A stretch of DNA of 34,791 nt from Acidobacteriota bacterium (GTDB lineage Bacteria > Acidobacteriota > Blastocatellia > Pyrinomonadales > Pyrinomonadaceae), in assembly GCA_021323895.1 (NCBI GenBank), contig JAJPKD010000167.1:1-34791 (forward strand), written 5' to 3'. The notes under the pieces are model-generated. The model saw only the letters and a list, made by a program, of their open reading frames with translations, did not search any database and was not told the DNA's origin. The position numbers and the translations under genes were made by a program. Shown piece by piece: positions 2,294 through 15,344 of the stretch. The stretch's first letter is position 1. The number at the start of each line of letters is the position of its first letter.

Positions 2294-3343
2294 TCACGCG
2301 TTGCTGGGAGTCGCTGCGACAGAATGAGCGGTGGCGGTCGCACGTATAGACTTTACGACCGCTTCGGCGAATTGAGGCTGGGAATTCAGTGATGGAATCA
2401 ACTGAAGTGATTGGCCACCGGCGGCGAGGAAAGTTTCTTTTCCGCGCATGCCGATCTCTTCCAACGTCTCCAGACAATCGCAAACGAATGAAGGACACGC
2501 GACAGCAATGCGCTTCACGCCGCGCTGGGCGAGATTTTGAAAGACGTCGACAGTGTTAGGGCTAATCCACTCGGCGCGGCCAAGCCGCGATTGAAACGAG
2601 ACCGTGTAATCGTCAGGGTGCAGTTCAAGTTGAGCCGCGATCGCACGCGCCGTGGCGAAGCACTGCGCGCGATAACAGTTTTGATTTGTCGAGTTAATCT
2701 CAGTGCAGCATTCAGCCGAAGGCGGCTGGTTATCGGCGTGAAACTTCGTCAAGTGACGCACCGGCAAGCCATGAAAGCTGAAGACGAGATGATCGGTAGT
2801 GTGCGGGTCGATCGAGCCGCGAATCCGGTCAGTCCAGGCGTTGATGAAGCCGGGGTCGCTATAGAAGGGCGGCAGAAAAGTCAGCAGCTCTTCGCAGCCG
2901 TGTTCGTGCGCGGTTCTCTTTGTTTCCACGACCGCAGTTTCGAAACTCGATTCGGCGTACTGCGGATAAAGGGGCACCACGATGATGCGCGAGACGCCGC
3001 TCGATTGCAGTTTCTCCAGTGCCGACTTGATCGACGGATTGCCGTAACGCATGCCGAACTCGACGACGTAATCCTCGCCAAGACTCTGCGCAACTCTATT
3101 TGCGAGCGCGCGGGTGTGCACGAGCAAAGGCGACCCTTCCGGCGTTTGAATCTTCTGATAGGCCTCAGCGGATTGATATTTTCGCCGCGGCACGATCGCG
3201 ATATTCACGAGTAGCCAGCGGAGCGGCGCAGGCATATCGATCACGAATGGATCCATCAGGAACTCGCGCAGGTAACGCCCGACCGCATCCGGCGTGGGCG
3301 CGTCGGGCGTGCCGAGGTTGATAAGAAGTACGCCTGTGGTCAT
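2294..3343 (-). CDS. hemH: Ferrochelatase
   Basis: The last step of heme synthesis inserts Fe2+ into protoporphyrin IX. The 349-residue protein starts with the family signature GVLLINLGTPDAP. It has the catalytic His191 in FSFHGLP, the SFQSRLGRAEW block (about 249-259) and the DCLETLEEI block (about 289-297) with the conserved acidic residues. Between the catalytic His and the SFQSR block is an insertion with Cys212, Cys213, Cys223 and Cys228. Some bacterial ferrochelatases carry Cys-rich insertions and [2Fe-2S] clusters, but whether these Cys residues bind a cluster is not shown. The gene is the last of the heme operon, separated from hemG by about 96 bases that hold an inverted-repeat element. 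With HemN upstream, the protoporphyrin-dependent route is the natural reading, rather than the coproporphyrin route. Confidence 0.96.
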   Translation of the reverse strand: MTTGVLLINLGTPDAPTPDAVGRYLREFLMDPFVIDMPAPLRWLLVNIAIVPRRKYQSAEAYQKIQTPEGSPLLVHTRALANRVAQSLGEDYVVEFGMRYGNPSIKSALEKLQSSGVSRIIVVPLYPQYAESSFETAVVETKRTAHEHGCEELLTFLPPFYSDPGFINAWTDRIRGSIDPHTTDHLVFSFHGLPVRHLTKFHADNQPPSAECCTEINSTNQNCYRAQCFATARAIAAQLELHPDDYTVSFQSRLGRAEWISPNTVDVFQNLAQRGVKRIAVACPSFVCDCLETLEEIGMRGKETFLAAGGQSLQLIPSLNSQPQFAEAVVKSIRATATAHSVAATPSNA

Positions 3344-3351
3344 GATCTATG

Positions 3352-3449
3352 TCTCTCTGAGCTCTGTGGGTTCTCGGTTCTTTGTGGTGGATTCTGACTA
3401 ACTAAATGTTCACCACAGAGACACGGAGGCCGCACAGAGTTACGGAGAG
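3352..3449. repeat. Inverted-repeat element, CTCTGTG / CACAGAG family
   Basis: The left arm (3352-3389, ending TTTGTGGTG) and right arm (3411-3449, starting CACCACAGAG) are imperfect inverted copies separated by about 21 bases. The element fills the hemG-hemH gap, and its right arm supplies the last codons and TAA stop (3442-3440) of hemG. The transcript could fold into a long imperfect hairpin, so it may modulate hemH expression or stabilise the upstream mRNA. No poly-T run marks it as a classical terminator. Confidence 0.75.
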
Positions 3450-4657
3450 TTTCTGAAGTGCTCCGCTACTACCGCCGCGCGCTCGATCAATTTCGCCAAC
3501 CCAATCCGGCCGAGGTAGTTTCCCACAACTACGATGTTCGGGGGCGGCGCAGGCAGATTCGTCAAGCTTCGCTCCAACTCGATCGTGTAATGCGGAATTG
3601 CGCTGGGTCGTCGATTGACGTAAAGCGCCAACGACTCGTCACGCTTACCGTAAAACCTTTCGCGCTCGGCCGCGATCAGTTCATGAAAATGATCATCGCC
3701 CAACTCAATAATATCCGGGTCAAGCGCGCCCCCAAAGATCCATGTCTCGGAATGCGCCGGGCCGCGGCCTTCGAAGATCGAATTGTTAAAGAGCACTCCG
3801 CGCGCGCGAAATCCCTGATCCCGTGGAAACAAACAACCAAAGCCGTTCAGAGTTGCCGCATCTTCCCGATAGAAAGCCGTCACAGTCACCAGCGCCAGCA
3901 TCTCAATTGCGCTTAAGGCGTCACTGATTGCCGGCGCGGCTTCGCGCAGATAGTCAGCAGCCGCGTTTGCTGAAAGACAGATCGCGATCGGATCGTTCGC
4001 TCCGATATCGACCGAGTCAGTGTTAAAGACAAAGTCAACGCCCGCGCTTTCGAGCCACGCGCGCAAGCCATCAGTCAACTGCTGCATACCCTTCGGCGGT
4101 GCGACCGTGCCGTGCAGCTTTCCCTTCTCAGGTTTGTTGCTGCGCAAGTGATCCGGCAGCGTCGCCTTGCCGAAGATCAGTGACGCGCTCAGTCGATCTG
4201 GATCGCCCGCGTAGATGCCGCCGAGCGCGGGCGCCAAAAGATAATCGGTCGCGGCGCCTCCGCCGACACGTTTTCCCCATTCGCTGTTCGACTCGAACGG
4301 CCGCGGCGATAGACTCGTCGCATGTGTTGCCATGCGCGCGCCAGTCTTGAACATCTCAAACATGTTGAGCGGGAGTTGTCTCGGTTTTCCGCGATAGATG
4401 AATCGCTTGCGACCTTCGTGACGAGTCGTAATCAGAGGCACACCGACGTCATCCGCGATCGCTTCCAGCTTCGCGGAGCTGAGGATTCCGTTCGCGGCTT
4501 TCTCAACCATGCCGTACTCAGTCTGAATCGTTTCGATTAATCCCCCGACGCGACTGCTCTTTTCGACGACGCGAACCTTGCAGCCGCGTTTGATGAGGAA
4601 ATACGCAGTCGTCAGTCCCGAGAATCCTGCGCCGACGACTGTGATAATTCCTGTCAT
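3440..4657 (-). CDS. hemG: Protoporphyrinogen oxidase, HemY-type (FAD)
   Basis: This enzyme oxidises protoporphyrinogen IX to protoporphyrin IX using FAD and oxygen or another acceptor. The N-terminus has the dinucleotide-binding motif VVGAGFSGLTTAYFL (about 7-21), then the FAD-contacting VVEKSSRVGG stretch. The C-terminus carries the second FAD-binding block VVVGNYLGRIGLAKLIE (about 375-391), typical of HemY-type PPO. At 405 residues it is shorter than the usual 450-480, the shortening being in the middle. The catalytic type is HemY, not the flavodoxin-like HemG of E. coli; the symbol hemG follows the naming used for the equivalent Leptospira operon. The position between hemN and hemH fits the pathway order. 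A four-copy repeat cluster occupies the 246-base gap to hemN. Confidence 0.93.
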   Translation of the reverse strand: MTGIITVVGAGFSGLTTAYFLIKRGCKVRVVEKSSRVGGLIETIQTEYGMVEKAANGILSSAKLEAIADDVGVPLITTRHEGRKRFIYRGKPRQLPLNMFEMFKTGARMATHATSLSPRPFESNSEWGKRVGGGAATDYLLAPALGGIYAGDPDRLSASLIFGKATLPDHLRSNKPEKGKLHGTVAPPKGMQQLTDGLRAWLESAGVDFVFNTDSVDIGANDPIAICLSANAAADYLREAAPAISDALSAIEMLALVTVTAFYREDAATLNGFGCLFPRDQGFRARGVLFNNSIFEGRGPAHSETWIFGGALDPDIIELGDDHFHELIAAERERFYGKRDESLALYVNRRPSAIPHYTIELERSLTNLPAPPPNIVVVGNYLGRIGLAKLIERAAVVAEHFRNSP

Positions 4658-4903: not shown

Positions 4904-6247
4904 CTACAACGCCTGCGAAAACATCTGCGGCTTCTGTTCCTGACGCCGCAATCGCTGGTCGAAGAACATGCACGCGTTACGCAGGAAAGGCGTTCCCTTC
5001 TCAGTCAATTGCAGCGTATCGTTCGACACTTCGACTAAGCGGTCTTCGATCATCGGTCGCAAAAATTCGCGCGCGTCAGCGGCCTGATCGTCAGACAGAC
5101 GCACTTTGAACTTCGTCATGAATTGCAGAACCTGCTCGCGCAACCTCCGATCCTCTTCATTCAGCAAATGTCCGCGCAGCGTTGGTATCTCTTGATTGCG
5201 AACGCGGCGTTCATAAACCGGATAGGCCTTTTCATTCTGATGAAAGCAAGTGGGCGTTTCCGAAATCGCGCTCACTCCCAAACCAAGCAACACAGTTGTG
5301 CGCGTCTCTGTGTAGCCTTGAAAATTTCGATGCAGCGTTCCGTTGCGCTGCGCTTCCGCCATGCCGTCATGCGGGAGCGCAAAGTGATCCATGCCGATTT
5401 CAACATAGCCCGCGCGGGCAAGCATCTCGCGCCCGATTTCATAAAGCTCGCGCTTCTCGCCGGCGACGGGAATATCTTCGTCTTTGTAGCTGCGCTGCGC
5501 CGGTTTGATCCAAGGCACGCGGGCGAAGCTGTAGAGCGCGATGCGATCAGGACGCAATTCGATCGTCTTCTCGACAGACTGTCGAAAGCGTTCCGGCATC
5601 TGCCGCGGTAATCAGTAAATAAGATCGTAATTCACTGACGTGTATCCAAGCTCACGCGCGGCATCGGTGATCGATTTGGTAACTTCGTACGGCTGATGAC
5701 GATTGACGAGCTTCTGTACTTCCGGATCGAAATCCTGCACGCCGATCGAGATGCGCGTGAAGCCGAGTCCGTGAAGCATTTCAAGCTGTTCGCGCGTCGT
5801 ATGGCCCGGATGAACTTCGACTGAAGCTTCGAAGCGATCCTTGTCCACGCGCGTGCTGTCGAGTATCGGTTTCAGAATTCGTTCGAGATTTTCCGCAGAG
5901 AAAAACGTCGGCGTGCCACCGCCAAGGTGAAGTCCGGTCAGCGACCGCTCACGCAACCCGGCAACGCGCGCGACGTAAAGATTCCACTCGGTTGAAAGCA
6001 GATCGACGTAGGTTTCTTCGCGTTTGTGATCGCGCGTGATGACCGTGTTGCACGCGCAGAACGTGCACAACGACTCGCAGAAGGGCAGATGAAAATATAG
6101 CGACCAGGTCGCCGCCTCATCAGCAAATGCCTGATTCAGTGAATCGATCCATTGATCGGTTGTCGGCGAATCGGTCCAGAACGGGACCGTCGGGTAGCTG
6201 GTGTAGCGGGGCGCCGGGACATCGTACTTGGCGAACAAATTAGTCAC
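4904..6247 (-). pseudogene. hemN: Oxygen-independent coproporphyrinogen III dehydrogenase, interrupted by in-frame TGA
   Basis: HemN is a radical-SAM enzyme that converts coproporphyrinogen III to protoporphyrinogen IX. The N-terminal part (211 codons, 6247-5615) has the cluster motif with Cys57, Cys61, Cys64 and Cys66 in PFCESLCTFCAC, and the SAM-binding GGGTPTF motif. At 5614-5612 the codon is TGA. The same frame continues without a shift (LPRQMPERFRQSVEKTIEL) to the true stop at 4904. The protein then has the HemN C-terminal features GMDHFALPHDGMA, HRNFQGYTE and the end FDQRLRR. The expected sequence at the break is YGLP, so TGA replaces GGA (Gly), one base change. The full span of 447 residues is near the 457 of E. 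coli HemN. This could be a real nonsense mutation, a sequence error or readthrough; the rest of the gene shows no decay. Confidence 0.9.
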
Positions 6248-6283: not shown

Positions 6284-7297
6284 TCATTTGAGTGTTTCCC
6301 TGACCGTGTCAACAAACAATCTCACATTGTCTTCCGGCGTGCCCGGCAATACGCCATGACCAAGGCCGCAAATCCAACCGGGCCATTCGCGATCCTTCAT
6401 CGTTTCCAAATAGCGATTAAGGTGCTTCTTCAAGTCCTCGCGCGTCGCGTGCAACAAAGCCTGATCGAAGTTACCCTGAACGAAACCGTGGGACGCAATA
6501 TCGAACGCGTGGCGGAGATCCCACGTGTGATCGACGCCGATACCCAAGAATTCGGTTCCGATAAACCCGTTCTCCAGATGGGCCGGTTGCGTTCCTTTTG
6601 AGTAATAGCCGGTTCGTGCTGGAGACGCGTGGGCGAGGGTCATGAGCTGTGGCACAACCGCTGACTCGAAGAGCTGCGGCGAAAGTTCACCCGCAGCCGT
6701 GTCGAAGATCATCACTACTTCAGCGCCATTGTTGAGCTGAAGCTCGATGTTACGCTCAAGCAGTGGGACGATCGTCTCGCAGAATTGTGCAAACAAAGGA
6801 AGCAGCCGTTTCGAATTCGTCAGCGATCCTTTGTGCGTCCCTTCGACCGCATAGACGAACAGCGTCCACGGCCCACCAACGAAACCGATCAGACTGCGAT
6901 CACTCGGAATTCGTTCGCGTGTCGCGCGCATCGCCTCACCTTGAAAGAGCAAGTGCGGCCACGCGTCATCGATCGATCGCAGATGCGAGATCGAATTCTC
7001 CTCAAGTTTCCATCCTAGTTGAGGTCCGCCGTCCGTGTACTCCAAACCCATTCCAAGGGCTTCAAGTGGAAACAGAAGATCGCTGAAGAGAATCGCCGCA
7101 TCGAAACCAAAATCCATGACTGGCCCGAGCGCGACTTCAGCCGCCAGCTCCGGCTGCTTGCACAAGTCGACGAATGAATGCTTCGCGCGCAGCGCCTGAT
7201 AATGTTTGTGGTAGCGCCCCGCCTGTCGCATCAGCCAAATCGGCGGCGTGCGTTGGGGAACACGGGCGAGCGCGTTTTGGAAACGCGTGTTGCCCAT
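6284..7297 (-). CDS. hemE: Uroporphyrinogen III decarboxylase
   Basis: This cytosolic enzyme removes four carboxyl groups from uroporphyrinogen III to give coproporphyrinogen III. The start signature RTPPIWLMRQAGRYHKHYQ and the ILFSDLLFPLEALGMG block with the catalytic Asp are intact, and the C-terminus has the GLGHGVLPGTPEDNV block. The frame is open up to 7405, but residues 1-36 of that longer form are unlike the family and partly encoded by an inverted-repeat element. The ATG at 7297-7295 (MGNTRFQNAL) starts just where family similarity begins and gives 337 residues, close to the usual 340-355. An ATG at 7372 is another option. None of the starts has a clear Shine-Dalgarno sequence. It follows the response regulator in the operon. 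Confidence 0.93.
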   Translation of the reverse strand: MGNTRFQNALARVPQRTPPIWLMRQAGRYHKHYQALRAKHSFVDLCKQPELAAEVALGPVMDFGFDAAILFSDLLFPLEALGMGLEYTDGGPQLGWKLEENSISHLRSIDDAWPHLLFQGEAMRATRERIPSDRSLIGFVGGPWTLFVYAVEGTHKGSLTNSKRLLPLFAQFCETIVPLLERNIELQLNNGAEVVMIFDTAAGELSPQLFESAVVPQLMTLAHASPARTGYYSKGTQPAHLENGFIGTEFLGIGVDHTWDLRHAFDIASHGFVQGNFDQALLHATREDLKKHLNRYLETMKDREWPGWICGLGHGVLPGTPEDNVRLFVDTVRETLK

Positions 7298-7298
7298 C

Positions 7299-7410
7299 TT
7301 GGAGCGCGGCGGCCTGACGCCGCTTTCAAACTCCGTCTGGACAATTGCTGGCTGTGTTGATTCTGAACTCATGAACAATTTCAAAGCGGCGTCAAGCCGC
7401 CGCACTCCAA
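7299..7410. repeat. Inverted-repeat element, GGAGTGCGGCGGCTTGACGCCGC family, copy 1
   Basis: The arms at 7299-7330 and 7380-7410 are inverted copies of about 31 bases that differ at only a few positions, separated by about 49 bases. Each arm contains an internal GCGGC/GCCGC palindrome. The element spans the junction between the response regulator (stop at 7414-7412) and the probable start of hemE at 7297. A second element of the same family lies at 31148-31240. Confidence 0.88.
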
Positions 7411-7411
7411 A

Positions 7412-8083
7412 TTACTCATCTCCACACCATTGATATCCCACGCCGCGCACCGATCGGATGCATGTGCTGTCCGCATCGCCGAGCGTCTGTCGCAAACGCA
7501 CAATCATGTTATCGATGGTGCGTTGGTTCGCCGCCAGCTTGTCCTCGCCCCAAAGCGAATCGAGAATCTGATTCCGACTGATCACGCGTGGGCTGCTCGT
7601 CACCAACAGTTGCAGCAAATCAAAATCCTTCGCCGCCGGATGCTCCCGTTCTCCGCTGGGCTGCACGATTGCTCGATTGTCCAAATCGATGGTGCGACCG
7701 TGGCAATTCACCTGATGCAGCACCGGGTGACTGTCCAGTACGTGCTGCACGCGCAGCAGCAATTCGCGCAGATGGAAAGGCTTTGGCAGAAACTCTTCCG
7801 CGCCGATTTCAAACCCTTCGAGTCGATGCTCGGCGGTGCTCAATGCAGTCATGAACATGATCGGCAGGGATGTGTTCTGTTTGATATGCCTCGCCAGCTC
7901 AAACCCCGAACCGTCAGGCAAACCAATGTCGAGAATCACTAAATCCCAAAGACCTTCCGAAAGCTTCTTCAGCGCGCGCTGCTGCGTCTCGGCCCAATAG
8001 ACCTCATACTTCTCACGTTCGAGGCGTTCAGCCAAAGTCGCGCCGAGCGAACGATCATCTTCGACCAGTAACAGTCGCTTCAT
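7412..8083 (-). CDS. hemR: OmpR/PhoB-type response regulator of the heme operon (HemR-like)
   Basis: The 223-residue protein has a receiver domain (1-115) with acidic residues Glu8, Asp9 and Asp10, phosphoacceptor Asp52, Thr79 and Lys101. A winged-helix DNA-binding domain follows (about 125-220), ending in the family signature TIDNMIVRLRQTLGD...IRSVRGVGYQW. The gene overlaps the 3' end of the sensor kinase by 29 bases and precedes hemE. Its location between hemL and hemE matches Leptospira hemR, whose product controls heme biosynthesis genes by binding a TGACA-N6-TGACA box. Such a box lies upstream of hemA here (13755-13770), which supports autoregulation of the whole operon. The assignment as HemR orthologue is an inference from order, family and site. 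Confidence 0.9.
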   Translation of the reverse strand: MKRLLLVEDDRSLGATLAERLEREKYEVYWAETQQRALKKLSEGLWDLVILDIGLPDGSGFELARHIKQNTSLPIMFMTALSTAEHRLEGFEIGAEEFLPKPFHLRELLLRVQHVLDSHPVLHQVNCHGRTIDLDNRAIVQPSGEREHPAAKDFDLLQLLVTSSPRVISRNQILDSLWGEDKLAANQRTIDNMIVRLRQTLGDADSTCIRSVRGVGYQWCGDE

Positions 8084-9023
8084 TAGTACGCACGCGTCCC
8101 GCGTGCTGGTTTTCAGAAATCACGCCGGCAGCGTGCCTACTCCGAGCTTCCGGCAAAACCAGTTCTGCGACGAAGCCGCTCTCTTCGCCACTGCAAAATT
8201 CAATCGTGCCGTTCATCGCTTTCGCCAATTGCCGCACGATGTAAAGCCCGACGCCACTGCCGCTGCTGCGCGCATGACGCACGAACAAGCTGCCGAGTTG
8301 GCTTAAGTCGCCTTTGAACCCCTGTCCGTTATCAACCACGGTCACACTCACGCGCCCGTCGCGCCGCTGCACTTTGATGTCAACTTCGGTTGCATGCCCG
8401 TGAATAACTGAGTTCTGTACCAGATTAGTCATCACGCTTTCCAAAGCGCGCGCGTCGGCCATCACTTCCGCATCGCCCGTCAGAGTGATCGTCACGTCCG
8501 GCCAATTCATCTGTAATGCATCGATGCGATCGCTCAACTTGAGTGGCTGCAAGAAGAATTTGCCGCGCGGCAGGTTCACTAAGAAAAGCGAATTCTCCAA
8601 CTGAAGTTGCAGACGCAGCGTGTCGCCAAGCAAACGCTCGAGCAAAGGGTTCGCTTCCGACTGCGCGTAATCCTCGCGCAAACTTTCTGCCTGCAAGCGC
8701 AAACTCGCGAGCGCCGTTTTTGCATCATGAGTGAAAGCTGCAAAGAATTCTTCGACCTGCGCATGCCGCCTTTGCTCACGCTTCGCATAATAAAAAAGCG
8801 CGAGGCCGCCGCCGATGAGCGAAGCGATCAGGATGCCGCCCTCCCACATCAGCATCGTGTAGTAGCGATGCAGGTCCTGAGCGCCGGCCACACTCAGGCT
8901 CTTAATGAGATCGAGTTGCCGCAAACCGAAGACAAGCCACCACGCTGCCAGCGTCACGGTAAAGATGACCCAGACCGCGACAAGGGCGATGGCTAAAGAC
9001 CTGCGTTTGCGTTCAGCACTCAT
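8055..9023 (-). CDS. Membrane sensor histidine kinase of the heme operon (HemK-like, HemKR system)
   Basis: This 322-residue kinase has two transmembrane helices (about 9-34 and 60-80) with only about 25 residues between them, so little can be outside the membrane. It has no clear HAMP or other sensor domain. The phosphoacceptor is His99 in [13 protein letters not shown]. The ATPase domain has the N-box ([11 protein letters not shown]), the G1 box (VVDNGQGF) and the G2 box ([12 protein letters not shown]), so it looks catalytically complete. It starts with an ATGA overlap with the hemL stop and overlaps the regulator downstream. The last 20 or so residues are encoded by an inverted-repeat element at 8086-8140 and are unlikely to be functional. 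The Leptospira partner is called HemK; the symbol is left blank because hemK also means the glutamine methyltransferase prmC. The signal is unknown; heme status is the natural guess. Confidence 0.9.
8086..8140. repeat. Inverted-repeat element within the sensor kinase 3' end
   Basis: The arms 8086-8105 (GTACGCACGCGTCCCGCGTG) and 8121-8140 (its near reverse complement) match at about 17 of 20 positions and flank 15 bases. The element is wholly inside the last codons of the kinase gene and ends three bases before the start codon of the response regulator gene. Confidence 0.75.
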
Positions 9024-10330
9024 CTCGAGATCTGTTCGACCGCATTGATTAACGTCGTGTGCGCTCGTTCCAACACTTCCTCCGTATGCGCCAGCGAAAC
9101 GAAGTTCACCTCGTAGCCACTCGGCGATAAGTAAGCTCCGCCATCGAGCGCTGCATGAAATACTTTCGCGAACGCCGTGGCGTTCTGCGCAGGGATCTGT
9201 TCGATTCGGCGAATCGGCTGATCGGTTGCGGAATGCAGCCAGAAGATCGAAGCCGTCTGCGTGATTTGAAACGGCAAGCCATTCGTTTTGAATTCTGAAT
9301 TCAGCCGATCGCAGAATTGCGACGTTCGCTTTTCAAGTTGATCGTAAACATTAACGCTCTCGGCTTTTTGCAGAGTCGCGAGGCCCGCGCGCATGCCCAC
9401 CGGATTCGCGCTCAGCGTGCCGGCTTGATAGACCGGGCCAACCGGCGCAACGAGTTCCATCAAATCTTTTCGCCCGCCATAAGCCGCGACCGGAAATCCG
9501 CCGCCAATTACTTTGCCGTACGTCACCAGATCAGGACGAATGCCAAGCACTTGCGCCATCCCGCCCAGCGCTACGCGAAATCCGGAAATGACTTCATCAA
9601 AGATCACCAGCGCACCGTTTGCGCGCGCGAGCCTGATCACTTCATCGATAAACTCACGTCGTTGAACCAGCAAGCCGTAGTTCGCCGGCAACGGCTCAAG
9701 AATAACCGCGGCGATTTCGTCTGCGTGCTCATTGAAGATATCGCGGACTGAATCTTCATCGTCGAGCGAAGCAACGAGCGTGTCGCTCGCGACTTGATCA
9801 GAAACGCCTGCGCTCGAACTAGCGGCCTCGCCCGCCAAACCGCTGCCTGCTTTGACGAGCAACGGATCGGAATGGCCGTGATAGCAGCCTTCAAATTTGA
9901 GAATGCGATTGCGGCTCGTCGCTGCGCGAGCGACACGCAGCGCGCTCATCACGGCTTCAGTTCCTGAAGAGACAAAGCGCAGCATCTCGACCCACGGGAG
10001 GCGCGAGGTTATCCACTCAGCCAGTTCAAGCGAATAAGGTTCGCACGCGCCAAAGCTCCACGCGGTATCGACCGCTTCGCGCACAGCCGCGCTCACGTCC
10101 GGGTCGCGATGTCCAAGAATCAGTGGACCAAAGCTCTGACAGAAATCGATGTACTCCTTACCATCAACGGAAGTCATCGTCGCGCCTTGTGCGCTTTTGA
10201 AAAAGATCGGCGTGCCGCCCACGCCTTTGAACGCGCGCACCGGACTATGCACGCCGCCGGGCGTGAGGCGGGTGGCGCGTTGGAAGAGTTCGCAAGAGAG
10301 ATTCTGTTTGGCTGCGACTTGCTCACTCAT
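9020..10330 (-). CDS. hemL: Glutamate-1-semialdehyde 2,1-aminomutase
   Basis: This PLP enzyme converts glutamate-1-semialdehyde to 5-aminolevulinate, the second step of the C5 pathway. The 436-residue protein has the N-terminal [12 protein letters not shown] motif of GSA aminomutases, which separates it from other class III aminotransferases. PLP is bound by Lys273 in [11 protein letters not shown], with Asp245 in [10 protein letters not shown]. The length is normal. Start and stop both overlap neighbours by four bases (ATGA) with hemB upstream and the sensor kinase downstream, a sign of tight translational coupling. With hemA it shows that the organism makes ALA from glutamyl-tRNA. Confidence 0.97.
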
Positions 10331-11283
10331 CTTCCAATCCCCAATTGCTTCGCGTAACGCGCGCCGTACGTGATGATGTATTGCGCGCCGGCGCGTTTGA
10401 AAACGTGCCAGGTTTCCATCAATGCTTCTTCAAATTTGATTAATCCCTGCTCAGCCAAAACCGAGATACCACCGTATTCGCCGCTAACTTGGTATGCTCC
10501 GCACTGCAACCCAGTCGCTTCAGAAATCGGTCTAATTAGATCGAGCGAAGTCAGTCCCGGTTTCACCATCAAAATATCCGCGCCCTCTTCCGCGCAGCGC
10601 ACGCTGGCTGCGATCGCGCCGCTTCGATCCCGTACGTCGAGTTGATAACCGCGACGATCGCCAAACTGCGGCGCCGAATCGGCGGCATTGCGAAACGGGC
10701 CATAGAAGTTACTCGCGAACTTCGTGCTGTAGCTCATCACCGGCGTCAGATTGAAGGCGTGCTCATCGAGCGCCGCGCGAATGCGCGCGACGCGACCGTC
10801 CATCATGTCGCTGGGACTGATACCGTCAGCGCCGGCTTCCGCAAACGCAACGGCTGAATTCGCAAGTTCTTTCAAAGTCTCGTCGAGCTTAATTCCCTTT
10901 CCATCCAACACCGCGCAGTGCCCGTGCGTCGTGTACGAGCAGAGACAGGTATCAATCCAAAGGCACAAGCTGCCGCCGAACTGCTTCTTAATTTCAGAGA
11001 CCGTTTTCTGCGTCGCGTCGTGCGAGAAACCGCTTTCTTTCTTCTCCGCCGGAACTGGAAACAAAAGAAATTGAGTAACGCCCGCGGACAAATCCTGCTC
11101 GATCATCTTCAGGGCCGACGGGATGTTGTGGCGCACGTTTCCGCGCAGTCCGGGAATTGGCTCTTCGTGCGCGAGGCCTTCAACCACAAAGAATGGTTGA
11201 ATTAGTTGCGCGCGGTTGAATTCAGTTTCAGCGCACAAGTCGCGCAGATGTTGCGAGGCGCGTAAGCGCATCAAACGCTTCAT
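10327..11283 (-). CDS. hemB: Delta-aminolevulinic acid dehydratase (porphobilinogen synthase)
   Basis: HemB joins two 5-aminolevulinates into porphobilinogen. The Schiff-base lysines are Lys188 ([15 protein letters not shown]) and Lys241 (ILMVKPG). The metal site is the Cys-rich type [13 protein letters not shown] with Cys113, Cys115 and Cys123, so a zinc-dependent enzyme is expected. The frame is open to 11304, but the ATG at 11283-11281 is preferred. It overlaps the hemC-D stop as ATGA, and a strong GGAGGAG Shine-Dalgarno sequence stands 8 bases upstream. That gives 318 residues and a start [10 protein letters not shown] typical of the family. Confidence 0.97.
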
Positions 11284-12815
11284 TGAGACATCTCCTCCAG
11301 CCACTGTTCATGATCGAGGAACACTGTCGGCTCAACTCCATGCTTGCGCAATATTCGCTGCGTGTTTCCGGGGCCGCAATAATGCATCATTTCCTGCAGC
11401 CATGGATTCTGCGATAGAGCGTATTCGAAACTCGATCCACTCTTCCAAAAGAAGTGCTTGCGCCCGGTCAAATCGAGTCCGCCATCACGCGGCACTAAAC
11501 GATACGTTGCCAGCGTTGGGATGTCACCATCGTAGCCGCGGTCGTGGGTCAGCTTCAGCCATTTTATTTCGGAACTTGCGAGTGTTTCGATGCGCGCAGA
11601 TTCTTGTTCGCCCAGACTTTCCGCGGAGCCGTTAACCCACACGCCGCGTTTGGCCAGACGTTTCCAAGTCTGCAAGCCGCTTGTCCAAATAATCTGCCGA
11701 TCGCCCATCTTCCAGTCGTCGGGGAGAGCATCCGCCTTCGCAATCCAAAATGATAGCGCGTCGGCCGGCTGCCGGATCTCTATTCTTTCTGACCAGAAGA
11801 GACGTGCTTCCGACGCATCGAGCGGCCACAACTGCTCTCTTGGAATTTTATTTATTCCTGCTCTCGGCGTTTCAATCGAACGCGAATCCAACACAACCCC
11901 GTCATCGGTTAAGCCACGTAGGAAAGTCACTTCGCCGAATGGGCGGCGTACGACGCTGACTCCGATCTTTTGATGACAGCCGCCGCCATAACTACGCAGA
12001 ATCGCGCGCTCGTGCTCGACCGCCGTGAATGTGTCGATACAGTTGAGAGGCGCGATCAACTGTCGGATGTCGCCGCGCTTACGCGAAATCTCAATTGCCA
12101 GCGCGCCTTGCGCTGGAGCGGATGGATTCGCGGACAGCGGTAGCACCATCCAACGACATTGCGATAGAGCCTCGCGCAGAAAGTCGCGCGTTTTTGCGAA
12201 CTCGTCAAACGCAGCGCAAGCGGGCCCGACCGCTACCGCAGGCGGTTCTGACACACGTGCTGACAGCAGACGATCCATCGCCGCCTTCGCGACGATCAAT
12301 CCATCGACATCCTGCTCGAGCATTTTCCGCACGCGCGTCTGAACGTTGCCGCGCACGTTCTCAAATCTCAGTTCGTGGATCTTCGACGGAAGTGCATCAC
12401 GCAGAAACGACTCAAGGTTGTAAGCTCGGCGCGGCGATGAAGTCAGAATCGACATCAAGCCGGTGCGCTCAACTTCCTCCCAGCGATCGCGCCTTACCAG
12501 CAAAAGATCGCGCGCGTCGGCACGCGGCAGAGTTGCGACAATCTCAGTTTCCGGATCGACTTCAATCGCCAGGTCTTTCCACGAGTGCACCACCAGATCG
12601 AAATCTCCGCGCAACAGTCCTTCGCGAAAATCCTGTGTAAAGACGCCCTTCTCGGGCATCTTCCACAGCGGGTCGGTCAGATTCTTGTCGCCGAGAGATT
12701 CGTGAAAGGAATAGTTGATTTCGATTTGAGGATGGGTGGCGCGGAGAGCCTCGCCAACTTGATACGCCTGAATCCGTGCCAAGTCACTGCGACGCGACGC
12801 AATGGTCACGCGCAT
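11280..12815 (-). CDS. hemC: Hydroxymethylbilane synthase fused to a HemD-like (uroporphyrinogen III synthase) domain
   Basis: The 511-residue protein is about 200 residues longer than HemC alone (about 310). Residues 1-315 are hydroxymethylbilane synthase: RRSDLARIQA at the start, Asp81 in HSWKDL (usually HSLKDV), PAQGALAIE, and Cys280 in GGGCHQKIG, which carries the dipyrromethane cofactor. From about residue 335 to the end there is a domain with features of HemD: IIWTSGLQTW and later FFWKSGSSFEYAL resemble its repeated TS-x-x-A strands, and CGPGNTQRILRKHG resembles its IGxxTxxxLxxxG motif. It is shorter than a free HemD (about 250). No separate hemD is in the operon. In Leptospira a similar fusion does both steps. 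The start at 12815 has GGAAG four bases upstream; a GTG at 12827 is the alternative. It overlaps hemA by 10 bases. Confidence 0.9.
   Translation of the reverse strand: MRVTIASRRSDLARIQAYQVGEALRATHPQIEINYSFHESLGDKNLTDPLWKMPEKGVFTQDFREGLLRGDFDLVVHSWKDLAIEVDPETEIVATLPRADARDLLLVRRDRWEEVERTGLMSILTSSPRRAYNLESFLRDALPSKIHELRFENVRGNVQTRVRKMLEQDVDGLIVAKAAMDRLLSARVSEPPAVAVGPACAAFDEFAKTRDFLREALSQCRWMVLPLSANPSAPAQGALAIEISRKRGDIRQLIAPLNCIDTFTAVEHERAILRSYGGGCHQKIGVSVVRRPFGEVTFLRGLTDDGVVLDSRSIETPRAGINKIPREQLWPLDASEARLFWSERIEIRQPADALSFWIAKADALPDDWKMGDRQIIWTSGLQTWKRLAKRGVWVNGSAESLGEQESARIETLASSEIKWLKLTHDRGYDGDIPTLATYRLVPRDGGLDLTGRKHFFWKSGSSFEYALSQNPWLQEMMHYCGPGNTQRILRKHGVEPTVFLDHEQWLEEMSQ
11292..11298 (-). promoter_or_regulatory. 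Ribosome binding site of hemB
   Basis: On the - strand GGAGGAG lies 8 bases before the ATG at 11283. It is the strongest Shine-Dalgarno sequence noted in the heme operon and decides the hemB start against the upstream in-frame start at 11304. It lies within the last codons of the hemC-D fusion. Confidence 0.75.
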
Positions 12816-13723
12816 AAATCTTCCCACCCGAACGGACGGAATTGCGCCTGCTGGGATTGGCGCTGCACTAGTTGCTTGATTTCGCTACGCGCGGCTTCGA
12901 CGTGAACTTCCAGACGTTCACGCTCCGACCGCAGTGCCTCGAAAAGTTCGTTAAGCTTAATCACGTCGCCCGCAGATGATACCGGATCACTCTGCGCATC
13001 GCCACGAAGGTCCAGGCATTTGCCGAACGTAGTGCTTTGCGAATCAGACCAACGGGAAACTTCGTCGGCGCTCAAAGGAGCCGCAATCACCAACGCGGCT
13101 TCACTTTCCTGCCATTGTGCATCGCCCGAGTACTTCACCAGATCAATTTCCGGATAACTTTCGAGCAAGTCCTTTGCACGATCGAAGTTGCGATAGAAGA
13201 CGCGAACTTTGGTTTTGCCGATCAGCCACGGCAAAATCTCGCGCGCGAGCTTGCCGGCGCCGAGTACCGCCACCGCCGGCATTCCCTTCACATGTTGCCG
13301 AACAAGACTGCCGTAAGACTGGCTGCCGATGCCTTGCAAGTGCTCGTGACGGATCTGCTTCGCATCAATCATCAAGCTGGTCGCGAGCCGGCGCAAAAAC
13401 GACCCCCAATGATTCTTCGGAAACTTAGCTTTGAGCAGGAATTCCTTGAACTGTCCCATCACCGCGGTCTCGCCAACAATCGGTGAGTGCAATCCGCAGA
13501 TCGTTTCGAGGAGGAAGCGATAGGCGTTCTGACCTTTGAAAACTTCGACAGTTGCCAGCGGCAGCTTGCCGTTTTCAATTTCGGCAATCGTCGCCGCGCT
13601 TTCATTTGCATTGAGAAACAAAATCCGGCGGAGGCAGGTTTGCCATTCGATGCCGTTGAGCACGGCGGGCATCTTCTCGCGCGCCTCGTGTCGAAGGTTA
13701 ACTATGACCAGTTGGTCAATCAC
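12806..13723 (-). CDS. hemA: Glutamyl-tRNA reductase, compact and divergent
   Basis: GluTR reduces glutamyl-tRNA(Glu) to glutamate-1-semialdehyde, the first committed step of C5 heme synthesis. The catalytic Cys30 lies in WQTCLRRI, equivalent to the usual STCNRTE. The block FLLETICGLHSPIVGETAVMG (about 70-90) matches the conserved GLDSLVLGEPQILGQ. The NADPH site is VAVLGAGKLA. At 305 residues it is more than 100 shorter than typical GluTR (about 420): it ends after a short charged helix (about 270-292), so the usual C-terminal dimerisation domain is missing. The N-terminus cannot be extended, since a TAG stands four codons upstream of the GTG start at 13723-13721. No Shine-Dalgarno sequence is seen. 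It is the first gene of the operon and carries a hem-box-like site upstream. Confidence 0.85.
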   Translation of the reverse strand: MIDQLVIVNLRHEAREKMPAVLNGIEWQTCLRRILFLNANESAATIAEIENGKLPLATVEVFKGQNAYRFLLETICGLHSPIVGETAVMGQFKEFLLKAKFPKNHWGSFLRRLATSLMIDAKQIRHEHLQGIGSQSYGSLVRQHVKGMPAVAVLGAGKLAREILPWLIGKTKVRVFYRNFDRAKDLLESYPEIDLVKYSGDAQWQESEAALVIAAPLSADEVSRWSDSQSTTFGKCLDLRGDAQSDPVSSAGDVIKLNELFEALRSERERLEVHVEAARSEIKQLVQRQSQQAQFRPFGWEDLCA

Positions 13724-13729
13724 GCGGAT

Positions 13730-13760
13730 ATTCTAGAAATCCGGTGATTTCGATTGTCAT
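13730..13760 (-). promoter_or_regulatory. Possible hem operon promoter (leaderless hemA?)
   Basis: On the - strand a -10-like TAGAAT (13735-13730) stands six bases before the GTG start of hemA. The -35-like ATGACA (13760-13755) is 19 bases further upstream and is part of the hem-box. Transcription would begin at or next to the start codon, which would fit the lack of a ribosome binding site. The spacing is longer than ideal, as expected of an activator-dependent promoter. This is by eye only. Confidence 0.4.
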
Positions 13761-13771
13761 CGGTTTGTCAT
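13754..13771 (-). promoter_or_regulatory. Hem-box-like direct repeat, TGACA-N6-TGACA
   Basis: The - strand reads ATGACAA, four bases, ATGACAA: two perfect 7-base direct repeats with an 11-base period. Within it is TGACA-N6-TGACA (13770-13755), the form of the hem-box bound by HemR of Leptospira and close to the PhoB-type spacing. It lies about 30-50 bases upstream of the hemA start, in the operon that encodes an OmpR/PhoB-type regulator. Binding is inferred. Confidence 0.65.
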
Positions 13772-13810
13772 GAGATCGAGGAAAATCCCGCAGAAATGTG
13801 ACGGGGATCA

Positions 13811-13914
13811 CACTGGAGCGCGGGCATCCTGCCCGCAGTTCCTCGCAACGTGGCTCGCCAAAGAAACAAGCTGCTTTGCAAGCTCTGCCGACAAGAATGT
13901 CCGCGCTCCAACAA
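13811..13914. repeat. Inverted-repeat element, GGAGCGCGGGCATCCTGCCCGC family
   Basis: The left end (13811-13836) contains TGGAGCGCGGGCATC and the small palindrome GCGGGC-ATCCT-GCCCGC. The right end (13894-13914) has GATGTCCGCGCTCCA-like sequence (AATGTCCGCGCTCCAAC), the inverse of the left. The element fills the gap between the serine hydrolase gene and the hem-box upstream of hemA. Confidence 0.72.
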
Positions 13915-13934: not shown

Positions 13935-15344
13935 CTAATTCTGCGGCGCGACCTGATACTGCTCGAGTTTTCCGTCCGGCATCTCGTAGGTCCAAGCGCG
14001 GAGAACTCGCTGCGGAAAGCGCACGATGTAAACGCGCAGAGTCATGCCGCCCCGGAGTCCCTGGCTGACTTGAGTGAATGCTTGCGGCTCTCCCAAAGGT
14101 CCGAGGGTGCTCGCAAAATCCTTCAACGCCTGATCGCTAAAGTAGAAGTTCGCGTTGTCAGTGAAAAGTGAGCGATCAATCTTGCCCTGCTGAAGATCAG
14201 CGAAGATCCTCTTGGCTTGGTCGAGTTTCGCTGGCGTGGCCGAGTCGCTGGTTGCGAACAACAAAGGCGCGATGCCGCTCGCGCTCGGACCCGCGGCGCT
14301 CGATGCGTCCTGATTCGTCAGCACCACGATTGCCGCGCGGTCATCAGGAAAGATGATGTTTTGCGCGGTGAAGCCTGAAACTTCTCCGCCGTGCGAGAGC
14401 GCGCGATGGCCGCCCTGGTTGTTGATGCTGACACCCAAACCATAGTTCGTCGCTAATCCGTTTTTGAGTCCAACATCGCTTCCCAACTCCCGATAGGACG
14501 CGGGCTTAAGCAACTTCTGATCGATGATGGAGATGTCCCACTTGGCGAGATCAGAAGCCGGCATTGCGAGTTCACCCGCCGCGAACAGCCAACCTTTCCC
14601 TTCCTTCGGCGCCGGCCGCAAAGGCCCGAGTCCGTAGCGCAAGTAACCAATCGGATCGGTGTCGCCCAGTTTGCTTTGATCCGTATCCATGACACTCGTC
14701 ATGCCGAGCGGCGTGAAAACTTTCTGCTGGAGAAACTGAAGCAAAGGCATGTGGGCGACCTTCTCAATAATCATGCCCGCGATCACGTAGTTGGTGTTGC
14801 TGTACTGCCACTTGGTGCCCGGTTAGAAATCGAGCGGCTTCTTGGCCCACGTCTCCGTGATCTTCTGCGCGGTCGTCGCCTGCAGCATGCCCGGCATTAC
14901 GTAATCCTGCGGCCAGTAATCCTGATAACCCGACGTGTGCGACAGCAGTTGCCGAATCGTCACCTCGTTAGCGCGCGTCAGTTCCGGGATGTACTTCGAG
15001 ACTTTGTCATCGAGCGAGAGCTTGCCCTGCTCCTGCAAAAGCAGGATCGCCGCCGCCGTAAACTGCTTGCTGATCGAGCCGATGCTGTAACGCATCTGCG
15101 GCGTCGCCGGCGTTTTTGGCTCGAGCGTCGCGTCGCCATACGCTTTCAAGTAAACAATTTGCCCATCCTTGACGATCGCGACTGAAGCGCTCGGGACGCC
15201 CGTGCGCGCCAGAGTATCGGTAGCGACCTTGTCGATCTTTTCCGCCAGATCGGGGGGCAGTTGGTTTTGCGCGAGCGCCAACGAGGAGGTGAACGTAAAG
15301 AAAATGAAAGCTGCGAAACTGGCGGCAATTTTTGAGCGATGCAC
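13935..15344 (-). pseudogene. Secreted serine hydrolase (beta-lactamase family), interrupted by in-frame TAA
   Basis: This would be a 469-residue exported hydrolase of the class C beta-lactamase/penicillin-binding-protein-like family. A signal peptide ends near LALAQ (about residue 26). The SxxK nucleophile motif is SISK. After 173 codons (KKPLDF) a TAA stands at 14825-14823, and the same frame runs on with PGTKWQYSNTNY, which holds the second catalytic motif YSN. The third motif HGG occurs in SHGGEVSGF, and the C-terminal extension is intact to 13935. The position before PGTKW is usually a polar or charged residue, so a single base change from CAA, AAA or GAA would restore it. There is no other damage. 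The truncated product would lack the catalytic Tyr. The substrate of such proteins cannot be read from sequence. Confidence 0.88.

Follow-up and report, generated by a model that had tools for sequence, protein, structure and literature searches.

A TGACA-N6-TGACA repeat conserved upstream of hemA is the predicted operator of a HemKR-type heme switch in Acidobacteriota

Which protein reads the direct repeat that lies immediately upstream of hemA in this acidobacterial genome, and what does it do there? In the window, by which we mean the whole 34,791-nucleotide stretch of DNA that was analysed, the preliminary description had pointed to two perfect minus-strand ATGACAA repeats with an 11-base period containing TGACA-N6-TGACA, had likened them to the HemR binding site of Leptospira and had placed a HemR-like regulator of the OmpR/PhoB family in the operon that follows. 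The sequence is exactly so: the minus strand from 13771 to 13754 reads ATGACAAACCGATGACAA, that is ATGACAA-ACCG-ATGACAA, with the TGACA-N6-TGACA core at 13755-13770 and the whole element about 31-47 nt upstream of the hemA GTG (13723). In Leptospira biflexa the hem-box is defined as TGACA[N6]TGACA, which the repeat matches, and is bound by phosphorylated HemR (PMC11426443). HemR has been proposed to activate hemA and to repress hmuO in that organism; ALA leads to dephosphorylation of HemR and to a decrease in hemA expression, while under iron shortage deletion of hemKR raises expression of the hem operon, the sign of hemA control being mixed and condition-dependent (PMC11426443). Our search of the literature, which covered open-licence papers only, revealed no earlier report of HemKR or a hem-box in Acidobacteriota and no study of either outside Leptospira. 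We consider it highly probable, on comparative sequence evidence, that the repeat serves as operator in a heme switch of the HemKR type, through which HemR controls its own operon.

The genes downstream of the repeat are ordered hemA-CD-B-L-HK-RR-E-N-G-H on the minus strand, hemKR being located between hemL and hemE of a hemACBL-EN-G operon. The elements of the locus, in the direction of transcription, are:

13797..13812, unstranded: CRP/FNR-type dyad TGTGA-N6-TCACA, some 26 nt 5' of the hem-box (sequence reading and alignment)
13754..13771, minus strand: hem-box ATGACAA-N4-ATGACAA, predicted HemR operator (sequence, conservation and spacing)
13730..13735, minus strand: -10-like hexamer TAGAAT, 19 nt 3' of the hem-box and 6 nt before the GTG
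12806..13723, minus strand: hemA, short Leptospira-type glutamyl-tRNA reductase without a GlutR dimerisation domain
11280..12827, minus strand: hemC/hemD fusion, porphobilinogen deaminase (annotated as bifunctional in Leptospira)
10327..11304, minus strand: hemB, porphobilinogen synthase
9020..10330, minus strand: hemL, glutamate-1-semialdehyde aminomutase
8055..9023, minus strand: HemK-like (HemKR) sensor kinase with H-box THDAKT; two transmembrane segments seen by inspection
7412..8083, minus strand: HemR, OmpR/PhoB-family response regulator, orthologue of Leptospira HemR
6284..7405, minus strand: hemE, uroporphyrinogen decarboxylase
4904..6247, minus strand: hemN, oxygen-independent coproporphyrinogen oxidase with one in-frame TGA
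3440..4657, minus strand: protoporphyrinogen oxidase, flavin type (hemG in Leptospira)
2294..3343, minus strand: hemH, ferrochelatase

A record of L. interrogans carries hemA, hemCD, hemB, hemL, kinase, regulator, hemE, hemN and hemG in the identical order, with protein identities to the window of 34% (HemA), 37% (HemCD), 52% (HemB), 62% (HemL), 34% (kinase), 51% (regulator), 52% (HemE), 50-53% (HemN) and 35% (HemG). Among named contigs, close relatives of the window hemA were found in Blastocatellia / Acidobacteria group 4 MAGs; Blastocatellia is the class to which the window genome belongs. Several features set the window apart from the Leptospira system: its genus belongs to a different phylum, the repeat is extended to ATGACAA throughout the genus, and hemH joins the operon. 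In addition, the window genome has no match to a heme oxygenase gene (PF01126) and therefore no hmuO as a second target, a difference in the breadth of the regulon that leaves the core circuit unaffected. In other bacteria, hemA is subject to heme feedback on HemA or to FnrL- or Fur-type control. The target is the same here, the first committed step of the C5 pathway, but the locus differs in having a two-component regulator inside the operon and a short HemA devoid of the GlutR dimerisation domain. This domain is present in 37 of 60 genomes and absent from the whole genome of every genus member searched; genus members therefore seem to obtain HemA from this operon alone.

Two irregularities were observed at and beside the operon. 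The TGA within hemN, at 5612-5614, stands where four relatives encode glycine (DLIYGLPRQ), and is probably due either to an error in sequencing or to a nonsense mutation of recent origin. Upstream of the operon, a gene of the beta-lactamase family (PF00144; 13935-15344) is divided into two open reading frames, 13935-14786 and 14823-15344, and is probably broken or mis-assembled.

By phylogeny and sequence signature, the window regulator is an orthologue of HemR and not a generic PhoB. When 13 HemRs were placed in a tree with 14 paralogous OmpR/PhoB regulators from the same genomes and from a genome of another family of the class (G072, see below), a branch supported at 100/100 separated all the HemRs, including that of Leptospira, from the paralogues, so that the HemR-like regulator of the preliminary description proved to be the Leptospira orthologue. 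The HemR recognition helix follows the pattern R-[TA]-[IV]-D-N-x-I-[VL]-[RH]-[LI]-R-Q (in short R-x-x-D-N-x-I-[VL]-x-x-R-Q) and the wing reads IRSVRG[VI]GY[QK]W; both signatures are missing in the paralogues, whose recognition helix mostly has D-T/V-H-I. The best PDB match of the window protein was 4q7e, which we take to be the receiver domain of L. biflexa HemR. The kinase is likewise of the Leptospira type: it has two transmembrane segments, the first sharing the motif W-x2-x-T-V-x-L-x2-WW with the Leptospira kinase, and it retains the H-box histidine and, at H+4, the phosphatase threonine (the window reads THDAKT and Leptospira THEMKT). In Leptospira HemK this threonine, T102, is required for ALA-triggered dephosphorylation (PMC11426443).

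Taken alone, the occurrence of the repeat says little. One match to TGACA-N6-TGACA was observed in the window against 0.08 expected from shuffles, and the exact pattern was found five times in the whole 4.4-Mb genome. The four sites away from hemA lie within genes or at their 3' ends, none of them before a heme gene; the raw count is therefore unremarkable, and position and conservation constitute the evidence. Genomes of the genus each hold 5-12 copies of the pattern, mostly without any sign of conservation. Only the hemA site and one small-RNA-like locus are genus-conserved among the five exact sites of the window genome, and by this measure no broad HemR regulon was found in it. The search of the genome and of relatives that the preliminary description had proposed thus confirmed the hemA box, while in the window genome it yielded neither another site at a heme gene nor a heme oxygenase. 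When the 150-165 nt before hemA were examined at nine loci, between 0 and 16 of 4000 dinucleotide shuffles gave as good a best match at each locus.

Conservation was surveyed in Acidobacteriota genomes and in the one L. interrogans record, which came from a plasmid collection and stands for Leptospira. The Leptospira-type HemA was detected in 10 of the 396 Acidobacteriota genomes sampled across the phylum; outside the class, the 396 genomes yielded five with this HemA (G174, G223, G312, G319 and G416), all five with HemK and HemR inside the hem operon. The exact hem-box was found in all seven genus members, in G072 and G174, which represent two further families of Acidobacteriota, and in L. 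interrogans, where it reads TGACACTTCTTTGACA; G223, G312, G416 and G319 each depart from it by a single base, the first. The boxes outside the class are:

G174: TGACAAAGCAATGACA
G223: GGACAAAACCGTGACA
G312: CGACAAAACCGTGACA
G319: GGACAATCCGATGACA
G416: CGACAAAATCATGACA

Across the 14 loci, nine of the ten hem-box positions are invariant and the sole variable one is the first T. The GACA of the first half-site never changes and the 11-nt period is fixed, whereas the bases between the repeats vary. Every locus (14/14) has a -10-like hexamer (TAGAAT, TAAAAT, TATAAT, TATAGT, TAAGAT or TATATT) 19-20 nt after the box; in the genus the box stands 47 nt from the start codon, or 44 nt in G006, whose start is called slightly differently. 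The tightened pattern GACAA-N4-R-TGACA has a single match in each of the whole genomes of G223 and G416, the one at hemA. The preliminary description had made its reading depend on conservation of the repeat in relatives with the same operon, and every HemKR-containing hem operon in the relatives was found to carry the box, exact or with a single base changed, with the same spacing to the -10, as did L. interrogans, where that spacing is 19 nt. None of 14 regions upstream of canonical hemA genes without HemKR scored above 7/10, that is, none has a hem-box. Comparative evidence of this kind gives good support to the hem-box as a conserved operator and to its assignment to HemR.

The mechanism that we propose starts with HemK, encoded in the same operon, which would phosphorylate HemR. 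Phosphorylated HemR would then bind as a tandem dimer, two neighbouring molecules each on one ATGACAA half-site and both on the same face of the helix, and control the hemA promoter, whose -10 is located 19-20 nt downstream. Regulators of the OmpR/PhoB family recognise direct repeats in the form of tandem dimers; in the case of Mycobacterium tuberculosis PhoP the motifs are 7 bp long and 4 bp apart (PMC4832192), exactly the geometry of ATGACAA-N4-ATGACAA. Phosphorylated HemR is most likely an activator, because the second half-site occupies the -35 position with an over-long spacer to the -10; the 19-20 nt gap itself suggests an activator-dependent promoter. Build-up of a tetrapyrrole precursor would turn HemK into a phosphatase and so switch off both heme synthesis and the hemKR genes. 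Phosphorylation-dependent binding to the hem-box and the response to ALA are carried over from the L. biflexa work; binding of HemR to the hem-box in the window organism, the sign of control and autoregulation are our inferences. As the GTG starts 6 nt after the -10, the hemA mRNA is probably leaderless in the genus. Further upstream, the near-perfect CRP/FNR-type dyad is kept in six of the seven genus members and absent in G006, G072 and L. interrogans, another departure from the Leptospira promoter and one hinting at a second regulatory input.

A variant contained within the HemKR explanation reverses the sign, HemR repressing hemA by covering the -35 and dephosphorylation inducing it. The box does overlap the expected -35 position, and the higher hem expression of the L. 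biflexa hemKR deletion strain under iron shortage would agree with repression (PMC11426443). Against this, ALA dephosphorylates HemR and hemA expression falls in L. biflexa (PMC11426443), and the gap from TGACA to the -10 appears too long for a strong unaided promoter; we regard repression as rather unlikely.

Decidedly less probable is that the repeat is a site of the PHO-box class, read by PhoB or another OmpR/PhoB regulator and not by HemR. The plus-strand reading of the repeat, TTGTCAT-N4-TTGTCAT, differs from the E. coli pho box, CTGTCAT-N4-CTGTCAT, by a single base in each half-site (PMC4832192). A regulator on contig C226 of the window genome has a PhoB-like recognition helix, RTLDVHIRRLRQKL, and the hem-box is retained in G072, which lacks HemR. 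The likeness to E. coli PhoB and M. tuberculosis PhoP also extends to the regulator family, the 7-bp direct repeats, the 4-bp spacer and the period of 11, and a tandem dimer is expected in each case. There are also differences: the genes concern heme, not phosphate, and phylogeny identifies the regulator as HemR, whose recognition helix has DN-x-I instead of DVHI. Against a PHO box, the half-site is reversed relative to the gene, an orientation to the promoter opposite to that of the classical PHO box, and none of the five exact genome sites adjoins a recognisable phosphate gene at the loci examined. Moreover, the box tracks the HemKR operon in five further Acidobacteriota genomes and in Leptospira, and is missing before hemA genes without HemKR. 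Since its reverse complement is nearly a pho box, cross-talk with PhoB-like regulators is plausible.

We find it very improbable that the second half-site works alone as a plain -35 element and that the first is coincidental: TGACA does resemble the -35 consensus TTGACA and is followed by a -10-like hexamer, but 19-20 nt is a poor spacing for sigma-70 and the GACA of the first half-site is invariant over 14 loci at a fixed 11-nt period. That the repeat arose by chance in an intergenic stretch, as the scattered and mostly unconserved copies in the genus might suggest, is contradicted by the retention of position, sequence and spacing in 14 loci of two phyla and can be dismissed with near certainty.

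The locus of G072, which belongs to another family of the same class, keeps the hem-box and a TATAAT. From its hem operon hemK, hemR and hemE are missing. No HemR orthologue was found in the genome, whose best regulators share only 33-44% identity with HemR; some other protein may therefore bind the box in this organism. Two histories would account for this: a takeover of the box after the loss of HemKR, or a box that is read by a different protein. A two-transmembrane kinase and regulator pair on contig C99 of this genome (L120, 2865-4570) has a recognition helix, RAIDNFIVRLRR, resembling that of HemR. We rejected the pair as a displaced HemKR, as the helix is similar but the regulator falls outside the HemR branch; it is a candidate reader of the orphan box.

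The system described here is of a known kind, now found in several families of Acidobacteriota, and the circuit is thus no peculiarity of spirochetes. The 13 natural variants of the box region in soil bacteria define GACA...TGACA as the essential bases. With an orthologous regulator and a near-invariant site in two phyla, the locus offers a clean case in which to ask whether a regulator and its operator travel together. The patchy distribution of the operon (10/396) fits either transfer between phyla or repeated loss. As a speculation to which we attach limited weight, the hem-box may belong to an ancient mobile unit in which operon, kinase, regulator and operator moved or stayed together across phyla, the box then spreading to further promoters, such as, in the genus, that of a small RNA which other genera of the family also have.

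This second genus-conserved TGACA-N6-TGACA lies at L023 (G000:C138, approximately 1-360), the same locus being recognised in L084, L082, L075, L121, L122 and L123. On the other strand the site precedes a promoter-like TTGAC-N17/18 sequence and a conserved stretch of about 200 nt ending in a G+C hairpin. A fabG-like gene flanks the element on one side and, on the other, a gene whose protein product starts with STNPVVRSIISGNAPPAARSAAARG. The element has the look of a small RNA not yet described. Comparison with Rfam gave no hit at gathering cut-offs and only sub-threshold hits when these were relaxed, and matches to the element were found in 11 of 60 relatives. The repeat at this locus is perfect in five of the seven genus members and has one mismatch in the other two; outside the genus, four relatives from four genera without this HemA and hem operon have at most one half-site.

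In three of the genomes outside the class (G223, G319 and G174), hemH is divergent from hemA and the hem-box lies in between. In G319 (L137, approximately 847-881) a row of GGACAA repeats, GGACAAAGCCCGGACAATCGGACAATCCGATGACA, was observed between the divergent genes, which suggests that more than one HemR dimer could bind the shared hemH/hemA promoter region. Finally, G312 has a second site, GTGACAAAACCGTGACA (L150, G312:C12:47119-47133), with the same core as its hemA box, about 50 nt before a gene whose product resembles, by sequence, an efflux membrane-fusion protein of the MacA/HlyD type; control of this possible exporter by HemR is conceivable.
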